DNA of 41,247 nt from an uncultured Clostridia bacterium (GTDB taxonomy: Bacteria > Bacillota > Clostridia > Christensenellales > UBA3700), in the NCBI GenBank assembly GCA_947175555.1, contig CAMWNK010000012.1, forward strand, positions 1-41,247. The letters run 5' to 3'. Position 1 is the stretch's first letter, and every line of letters starts with the position of its first letter. This document shows, one piece after another, positions 38,960-41,247 of the stretch. Below the pieces are notes generated by a model, which worked only from the letters and a program-made list of their open reading frames with translations, was not told the origin of the DNA and did not search any database. The translations under genes and the position numbers were made by a program.

Positions 38960-39089
38960 TGCTTACCTCTTATTACGCTGCTTATTATTTATATAATTAT
39001 AGCATATCATTTACTCATTACTGTAGCTATAGTCATTATTTCATTGCTGTTTTTATTTAAAAAATATTAGCGGCATCAGTGCGCCGCCT

Positions 39090-39266
39090 TGTACATGTAT
39101 TAGTATAATTGATGATCATTTTTTCAATGAGTAGCCGATAATTGTATTAATATTTTAGCCTTTAAGTAATAATAAGTCAATATCTTAACGCGTAAAACGA
39201 CGAAAAACCATATATTTCCTCGCAATTCTTCCGCCCGTGATCATCAATTATACTAATTTATGTACA
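39090..39266. repeat. Long inverted repeat pair (about 30 bp arms, 117 bp between), candidate invertible promoter or MITE-like element
   Basis: Left arm 39090-39119 TGTACATGTATTAGTATAATTGATGATCAT; reverse complement of right arm 39237-39266 TGTACATAAATTAGTATAATTGATGATCAC; 27 of 30 identical. Confidence 0.85.
39152..39180 (-). promoter_or_regulatory. Sigma-A-like promoter inside the inverted-repeat segment, pointing left
   Basis: Minus strand TTGACT (39175-39180)-N17-TAAAAT (39152-39157). Confidence 0.55.
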
Positions 39267-39392
39267 TTTTTTCGGATTAAATTTCGACGCCGATATACAA
39301 TATCTGAGATAAACGGAACAATTTCGCATTGCTCTTAAATATACGCTGAGATAACTATAAATCGAAATAGTAGTCGTGTATACGGAGTTATA

Positions 39393-41247
39393 GTGTCAAG
39401 TAGAAGATATAGATTAATATCAACTATTTCTGCGGCAATTATTATTGTCGCGGTACTTCTATGCTTTTGCTTTATTTCTGTAGATAATATCAATAACGCA
39501 TTTGCTTTCACCGCAAGTAATATGACAAATGATACTGTCATAGATATCGGCGATATATTGCTTGACAGCTACGCGGACCGTACTGACGGAAAGGTATTCG
39601 ATGGCGAAGTTATGCAATCATTGTATGCTAAGTTGACAGGCAATGCGGCAAAAGATACTATTGCCGATGTAGACGCTTTGGGTACGCAGACAGCCGCGCA
39701 GATACGCTCTAATAATGGTAATAAAGATATCGTACTCACCATGGACGGGCAGAAGTGGACCGTAACACATCTTACTAAAGATAGGTCTGGCAATACGATA
39801 GCGACGCTATGGCTTGCTACGGCGACGGAGACGAGCGAGTTGAATAAATGGAGTGCAAGTACTCCTACTGATTATCCGTCAAATATGTACAGTAGCAGTT
39901 ACATAAGAGCAGACGTGCTTAATAGCGGCGGAAGCGGATATGTAGCTAATAATGGTGATACTGAGCTTACTAAGGTAGAGCAGCGTGATACGCATAAATA
40001 CGCAAGACTTACAATGCCTAATGTGGCAGGTTCGCTTACAGACTTTATAGTTACCCCTGCTCAAGTAGCTTATCAAGAGACGGAAAATCAGTACGAAAGT
40101 GGTGGAATGGGTTATACTATGTCCAATGAGGCGTACGGCAGTCCAAGCGGCACGGCAAATTGGATGGATATCACCTTTAATTACAGTGGAAAGAGCGGCT
40201 ACTCGGAATGGAAGAACGACTATATATGGCTACCGTCTTTAACAGAAACAGGATATAACACCACATATACCGGAATATGGGGATTATCTAACAGACAACG
40301 ATCCAACTCAGTCGAATCCTGGCTGCGCGTTGCTCACTCTGCTAGTGCTGCTAGTATGGGTGCCATGCGTGCGGCGGGCAATAGCTATGTCTTCAATAAT
40401 GTAACGACTAGTTACGCCGTCCGTCCCGCGTTTCACTTGAATCTTGACTTGGCGGCAGAGTATAGCGGTGGAGTTGCCTTGGCTGAGCCTACAGACGTAA
40501 CTGTAGAATATAAGGGCTCTGCGCTTACGTTGGACGACATAGCGGCGGAGCAAAAAAAGTGGTTCAATGCCCAGCAGCTTAGTATAACATATGATAGCGA
40601 GATTAAAGACGCGGGCACATATAAAGTAAAGGCAGAGATTAAGGCAGAGCTCGCTGCTGACGGTCTTACTTTCGAAGGCGAGCCGAATACTACCGCAGGC
40701 GAGAGCGATACGGTGCGCTACTTTAACTTTACCGTAACAAAGAAGAAGATAGGAATAACTGCAAGATTAGATAGCGGCGGACTGCCGACGGTAACGCTCA
40801 AGAACGCAGGCGACATATACACAGGCGACACTCCGCAAAACGGTCGCGCGCCGAGCTTCGGCTTTACGTACACCTCAAGCGGTGGAGTTACTTCCGATAC
40901 CTTGCCAACGGCGGTAGGTACGTATACTGCAACAGCTAAGTTGACTAATGACTGTAATTATGAAATAGACACAGCAAATAGTACGCTATCCGTAACATTC
41001 AAGATAGATAAGAAATCCGTGGATAAGCCTGCCTTATCGGGACAGGTAACCAAGCCGTACAGCGGAGTGGCGCAGAGCTTTACTCTGCAAGGAGTAACTG
41101 CAGACGTATCGCTTACTTTGCCCGACGGGGTAACGTATGCAGACGGCGCGCTTAGCGCAACTAATGCAGGGGTATATAAGATACGTGTTGCCTTAGCGGA
41201 TAACGGCGTAGCCACGCAGTGGGCGGACGGCACGGACAGCGCATATG
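39393..41247 (+). CDS. Large secreted surface protein, 3'-truncated by the window: signal peptide, DUF6273-like domain, Ig/MBG-like repeats
   Basis: Open frame from GTG 39393 (GGAG SD) to window end, over 618 codons; MSSRRYRLISTISAAIIIVAVLLCFCFISVDNINNAFA...; WLRVAHSASAAS...SYAVRPAFHLNLDL; KPYSGVAQSFTLQGV...ATNAGVYKIRVAL. Confidence 0.85.
   Translation, partial: MSSRRYRLISTISAAIIIVAVLLCFCFISVDNINNAFAFTASNMTNDTVIDIGDILLDSYADRTDGKVFDGEVMQSLYAKLTGNAAKDTIADVDALGTQTAAQIRSNNGNKDIVLTMDGQKWTVTHLTKDRSGNTIATLWLATATETSELNKWSASTPTDYPSNMYSSSYIRADVLNSGGSGYVANNGDTELTKVEQRDTHKYARLTMPNVAGSLTDFIVTPAQVAYQETENQYESGGMGYTMSNEAYGSPSGTANWMDITFNYSGKSGYSEWKNDYIWLPSLTETGYNTTYTGIWGLSNRQRSNSVESWLRVAHSASAASMGAMRAAGNSYVFNNVTTSYAVRPAFHLNLDLAAEYSGGVALAEPTDVTVEYKGSALTLDDIAAEQKKWFNAQQLSITYDSEIKDAGTYKVKAEIKAELAADGLTFEGEPNTTAGESDTVRYFNFTVTKKKIGITARLDSGGLPTVTLKNAGDIYTGDTPQNGRAPSFGFTYTSSGGVTSDTLPTAVGTYTATAKLTNDCNYEIDTANSTLSVTFKIDKKSVDKPALSGQVTKPYSGVAQSFTLQGVTADVSLTLPDGVTYADGALSATNAGVYKIRVALADNGVATQWADGTDSAY

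Follow-up and report, generated by a model that had tools for sequence, protein, structure and literature searches.

Results

The window cassette

We studied a stretch of 41,247 nucleotides (the window) and read a feature near its end as a member of a larger set of cassettes spread over the genome, each being a promoter that is inverted by site-specific recombination (probability about 0.9); promoter activity and orientation-dependent expression are inferred. This reading is built on what the assemblies display directly, i.e., the anatomy of the cassettes, their linkage to a single gene family, the co-variation of their arms and the presence of both ON and OFF copies.

The window cassette is bounded by two arms of 29 nt each, which are complementary at 27/29 positions and represent what we call class A recombination sites. 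The left (distal) arm (39090..39118, plus strand) reads TGTACATGT-ATTA-GTA-TAATTGATGATCA with the variable central bases GT, and the right (gene-side) arm (39238..39266, minus strand) carries the same central bases. A first-pass annotation had reported an inverted repeat with an uninterrupted block of 20 bp. This block (ATTAGTATAATTGATGATCA) is real and is the longest one within the arms; in 300 first-order Markov simulations of the 1.5 kb around it, perfect inverted repeats reached at most 14. The inverted repeat thus stands, while the suggested dimensions (arms of 30 bp, 117 bp enclosed) were off by one base per arm, since 119 nt are enclosed.

The enclosed segment (39119..39237) is captured in OFF orientation, the only one seen for this locus in the assembly, and has inverted counterparts on contigs C101 and C20. 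It holds, as annotated before, a sigma-A-like promoter on the minus strand (39152..39180; TTGACT at 39175-39180, N17, TAAAAT at 39152-39157) that is directed away from the surface gene. Beyond the distal arm, a terminator-like minus-strand hairpin (GCGGC-N8-GCCGC at 39070-39087, followed by TAATATTTTT; 39060..39087 in total) is sited to stop a transcript of the OFF orientation. On the other side, a plus-strand leader (39267..39392), whose first ~40 nt (TTTTTTC...) are alike in many copies, connects the gene-side arm to the giant surface-protein gene (39393..41246, plus strand). Its GTG start at 39393 is located 126 nt beyond the right arm, in agreement with the earlier annotation. The gene encodes an N-terminal hydrophobic segment, runs past the contig end and is 1 of 28 paralogs. 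That is, the locus shows what defines an inverton in terms of layout: inverted repeats around a promoter segment next to a gene.

Class A copies within the genome

The genome that carries the window comprises 1.74 Mb in 102 contigs. As for further copies of the arm, which the first-pass annotation had proposed to look for, we identified about two dozen relatives of the whole 177-bp unit, which are uniform in size and 73-95% identical. One outer arm (TGTACATG...) always borders unrelated DNA, while the other one (...TTATGTACA) always borders a partly conserved leader followed by a surface-family gene, mostly at a distance of 115-144 nt from the arm. The unit is absent from 58 relatives. When contigs of other species were scanned for the arm, five hits in unrelated bacteria emerged, each of them single and unpaired, and we take these as chance matches.

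The arms follow the consensus TGTACATnn-ATTA-RYA-TAATTGATGATCA, where the central RY bases differ between loci (GT 10, GC 3, AT 3, AC 2; n=18). Within a locus, they are identical between both arms in 18/18 copies (permutation p of ~5e-6, with the copies being related and thus not fully independent). We consider this a signature of recombination sites, because a strand-exchange region needs matched centres, which independent decay of transposon ends would not yield. Centres that vary among loci and yet match within each locus indicate active site-specific inversion, a mark for which a single assembly suffices and no reads are needed.

Most inner positions vary among the 18 fully read segments, except for TTGAC and TAAAAT, which are invariant (18/18); the promoter boxes are the best-conserved portion of the inner segment. 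Terminator-like stems are present in 11/18 distal flanks vs. 2/18 gene-side flanks.

Surface-protein genes and class B cassettes

A protein search identified 28 genes of the surface family in this genome, which share the N-terminus MSxKRYRLIS..AAIIIVAVLLCFCFISFDN.. and, where intact, encode proteins of ~1,670-2,020 aa that have a hydrophobic segment at the N-terminus and, at the C-terminus, a membrane segment followed by a basic tail. Two of them (on contigs C81 and C96) begin at a contig edge and were left out of the cassette count. All 26/26 judgeable genes are preceded by a cassette (20 of class A, 6 of class B), standing at a similar distance in each case. Searches of Pfam and NCBIfam name the surface protein only through weak or irrelevant matches, e.g., a weak one to DUF6273, and within our partial coverage of the literature we found no published account of the gene family or the arms. 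The family also occurs in a sister genus (genomes G021, G027, G030, G032 and G034); the matches in G047 and G009 are fewer or weaker.

Class B cassettes serve further paralogs of the same genome and have arms of the form GGACCTATTA-NNN-TAATAGGTCC (CCTATTA-NNN-TAATAGG). The pattern is found at 17 places in the genome vs. 0 for a reversed control. The central triplets TTG, TAG, ACG and ACA are observed and are the same in both arms for 7/7 full cassettes. Six of these cassettes are OFF, while the one on contig C94 is ON, i.e., its promoter (TTGCAT-N17-TATAAT) faces the gene.

Orientation of the cassettes

All class A cassettes that are full and have an assembled gene side are OFF (17/17), and so are four partly assembled ones. 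For two further copies, located on contigs C101 and C20 (26644), the inner segment lies the other way round with respect to the distal arm, which corresponds to ON. Here, the outer arm bases remain with their flank although the inner segment is inverted. The gene sides of both copies are absent from the assembly, such that they may instead result from recombination between loci.

A further hint comes from contig ends. The contigs C80 and C24 share exactly 55 bp, of which 29 nt are the distal arm and 26 nt belong to its flank, and contig C48 terminates at the same place, i.e., at the inner edge of the arm. The 55-mer has no second occurrence in the loci examined. Since a second pair of contigs (C66/C102) likewise overlaps by exactly 55, we took 55 as the k-mer of the assembly. 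Given this assumed assembler k-mer, a contig break located where an arm with locus-specific flank meets its inner segment suggests that two alternative inner orientations were present in the sample.

All orientation counts are derived from consensus assemblies, where ON states may be under-represented, because an ON minority would not get assembled.

Class C cassettes in the sister genus

In the sister genus, the same surface protein family is served by another type of cassette (class C), given by AAAAGT-NN-AC.TTT.CTGAC, which is nearly palindromic about its 2-nt centre and encloses 68-90 nt. The pattern is present in 13/17 sister-genus genomes, while the reversed control gave 0. Based on the promoter direction relative to the surface gene, 40 cassettes are OFF vs. 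3 ON. A clean ON copy is provided by locus L125 (G021), and G060 holds one gene (335/335 nt identical) OFF on contig C12 and ON on contig C4. The end of this C4 contig as well as the end of L306 fold back into the gene leader and thus contain both junctions; they do not represent clean chromosomes. Such ends are expected from an assembly graph that contains both orientations.

Both orientations therefore exist within the family (C94 and L125 ON, G060 both). The comparison of orientations among relatives, which the first-pass annotation had put forward as a check, gave ON copies in the genome itself and in two relatives and thus contradicts a single fixed orientation.

Apart from these, two surface-family genes of G021 (L126, L128) lack a class C cassette in front of them and may be expressed independently of any switch. 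Class C cassettes also precede one non-surface gene (protein start MPIRLGSSGEAKVSICDTQVFRKKLV) in L330 (G059), L335 (G030) and L338 (G062), where the promoter is directed away from that gene in 3/3 species.

Candidate recombinases

The window had been described as free of recombinase genes, which is borne out: no tyrosine or serine recombinase is encoded on its contig. When searching the whole genome for such invertases, we found five, all elsewhere, i.e., three tyrosine recombinases (on contigs C74, C51 and C3), a small serine recombinase (C25) and a large serine recombinase (C1). The C74 enzyme is XerC/XerS-like and its gene adjoins a LexA-like gene. None of the recombinase genes of this genome was found to adjoin a class A or B cassette.

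For class C, a link to the small serine recombinase is well supported by adjacency and co-occurrence. Orthologs of the C25 enzyme (at least 60% identity) are present in G009, G021, G027, G030, G032 and G034, and the gene neighbours a class C cassette both in G034 and, for each of its two copies, in G021. The four sister-genus genomes that lack the small serine enzyme (G008, G013, G017 and G024) are also devoid of class C sites.

Classes A and B, on the other hand, are probably driven by the tyrosine recombinases of contigs C3 and C51. Serine recombinases have a crossover of 2 nt, which misfits the 3-nt centres of both classes. Furthermore, homologs of the C3 enzyme in G014, G036, G049 and G052 adjoin inverted-repeat cassettes, of which 3/4 have a 3-nt-centre dyad as observed for classes A and B. 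Since a direct linkage is absent in the genome itself, this assignment is drawn from the form of the sites and from the relatives.

An alternative would keep the switch as described and have classes A and B worked by the small serine recombinase of contig C25. Orthologs of this enzyme co-occur with the surface family in six relatives and adjoin class C cassettes in G034 and G021, which speaks in favour of this reading. We nevertheless regard it as unlikely, given that the 3-nt centres, with all three bases free in class B, misfit a 2-nt serine crossover, that the C25 gene itself adjoins a class-C-like inverted repeat instead, and that it is tyrosine recombinases of the C3 type that adjoin 3-nt-centre sites in relatives.

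With regard to the tyrosine recombinase genes located beside single inverted-repeat cassettes (L181 in G052, L183 in G014, L184 in G036, L179 in G049), we observe for L184 and L179 that the cassette is placed directly before the recombinase gene with TTGACA-N17-TAAAAT facing it. Judging from this arrangement, the recombinase may itself be switched.

Proposed mechanism and remaining alternatives

Within the invertible-promoter reading, a recombinase would work on the two inverted arms and thereby flip the 119-bp segment. In OFF orientation, the promoter would fire away from the surface gene into the terminator-like hairpin; in ON orientation, transcription would pass through the gene-side arm and the 126-nt leader into the gene of the giant surface protein. 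Each of at least 26 surface-gene paralogs is equipped with a cassette of its own, using the two site classes A and B. Since the assembly shows almost all cassettes OFF, probably only a minority of cells expresses any given gene. The earlier idea of a recombinase-controlled promoter of a surface gene caught in its OFF state is thus supported by the matched arm centres, the gene-family linkage and the inverted copies elsewhere.

The same OFF bias (17/17 full class A cassettes with gene side, 40 OFF vs. 3 ON for class C) could also be read as the trace of once-invertible promoters that are by now frozen OFF, with the surface genes forming a silent archive used only through gene conversion. We consider this very improbable: the arm centres are matched in all class A copies, inverted segments are present at C101, C20 and C94, the C80/C24 junction suggests both orientations within the sample, and switches of this kind normally have a low ON fraction, as known for cwpV (PMC4737114) and BT1927 (PMC12548429).

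The least probable reading is a dispersed MITE, i.e., a non-autonomous transposon that ends in 29-bp inverted repeats and whose A+T-rich sequence resembles a promoter by chance. It would account for the many scattered copies (about two dozen, 73-95% identical) that are uniform in size and have inverted repeats at their ends. We reject it for the 177-bp unit, because every gene-side flank leads to one gene family, central arm changes are matched in both arms unlike in independent decay, and inner segments are inverted against fixed outer arm bases; furthermore, the flanks give no evident sign of a target-site duplication, and in the sister genus this gene family is served by cassettes whose arms are unrelated. 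Thus, the dispersal that the first-pass annotation had named as a sign of a MITE is found, while the unrelated loci it had coupled to it are not, as 26/26 judgeable surface genes have a cassette.

Coming back to invertible promoters, one could go further and picture a var-like antigenic wardrobe operated by promoter inversion, i.e., more than 26 giant surface proteins with one or very few ON per cell, locus-specific central arm bases serving as address codes that limit inter-locus recombination, and one gene family whose control differs between genera, with a serine recombinase in one and an unrelated tyrosine recombinase in the other after re-wiring. We put this forward as a speculative picture that is doubtful as a whole.

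Comparison with known systems

Promoter inversion before surface genes is well known. What is extreme here is the number of at least 26 individually invertible promoters for one paralogous family, with two site classes, in a 1.74-Mb genome. Since the same protein family has sites for another type of recombinase in the sister genus, the system also provides a natural case for asking how the enzyme of a switch can be exchanged while its target genes persist.

The cassettes resemble in their working the Mpi promoters of Bacteroides fragilis with 13 regions (PMC4747536). Both systems feature many dispersed invertible promoters with one arm type before surface loci and presumably a distant master recombinase. 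In contrast to Mpi, the genes concerned here (at least 26) all belong to one paralogous family, a single genome holds two arm classes, the centres are 3 nt long and tyrosine-like, and the recombinase classes probably differ. A serine-type system as in Mpi applies only to class C of the sister genus, and the C25 small serine recombinase reaches 40.8 bits vs. a cut-off of 272 for the Mpi family model (NF009949, NCBIfam). Furthermore, the genome is far from Bacteroides by gene content.

BT1927 of Bacteroides thetaiotaomicron is a phase-variable S-layer gene that is ON in ~1 in 1,000 (PMC12548429). It shares with our cassettes a surface protein under an inverted-repeat-flanked promoter, and is OFF in nearly all cells. 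Organism and arms are unrelated, and the paralog set per genome is far larger here. For cwpV of Clostridioides difficile, which is controlled by RecV and ON in ~5% of cells (PMC4737114), a site-specific recombinase switch is likewise located ahead of a large surface protein; however, that switch sits between promoter and gene, such that the promoter does not move, and concerns a single gene.

For Firmicutes_A, a survey of invertons in gut strains reports a median of 3 per genome (PMC11892184). The surveyed invertons resemble ours in having promoter segments in inverted repeats near surface genes, common arm motifs and invertases nearby. They differ in scale, as we find ~30 cassettes with two arm classes for one gene family, and in approach, since such surveys are read-based (PhaseFinder-type) while our analysis is assembly-based.

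Additional repeats

The class-C-like inverted repeat of contig C25 (L040:2136-2256; TAGTAAAAGTCTG[A/C]TTTTA) spans 120 bp between the small serine recombinase gene and a gene for a BspA-like leucine-rich-repeat lipoprotein. It is possibly a separate switch of the small serine enzyme. Finally, dispersed repeats (TGTCATTCTGAGCG / GTCATTTCGA) are found upstream of sister-genus surface genes in G021 and G030 (L125:290-643, L127:132-492, L133), which look like a separate, unrelated repeat family.
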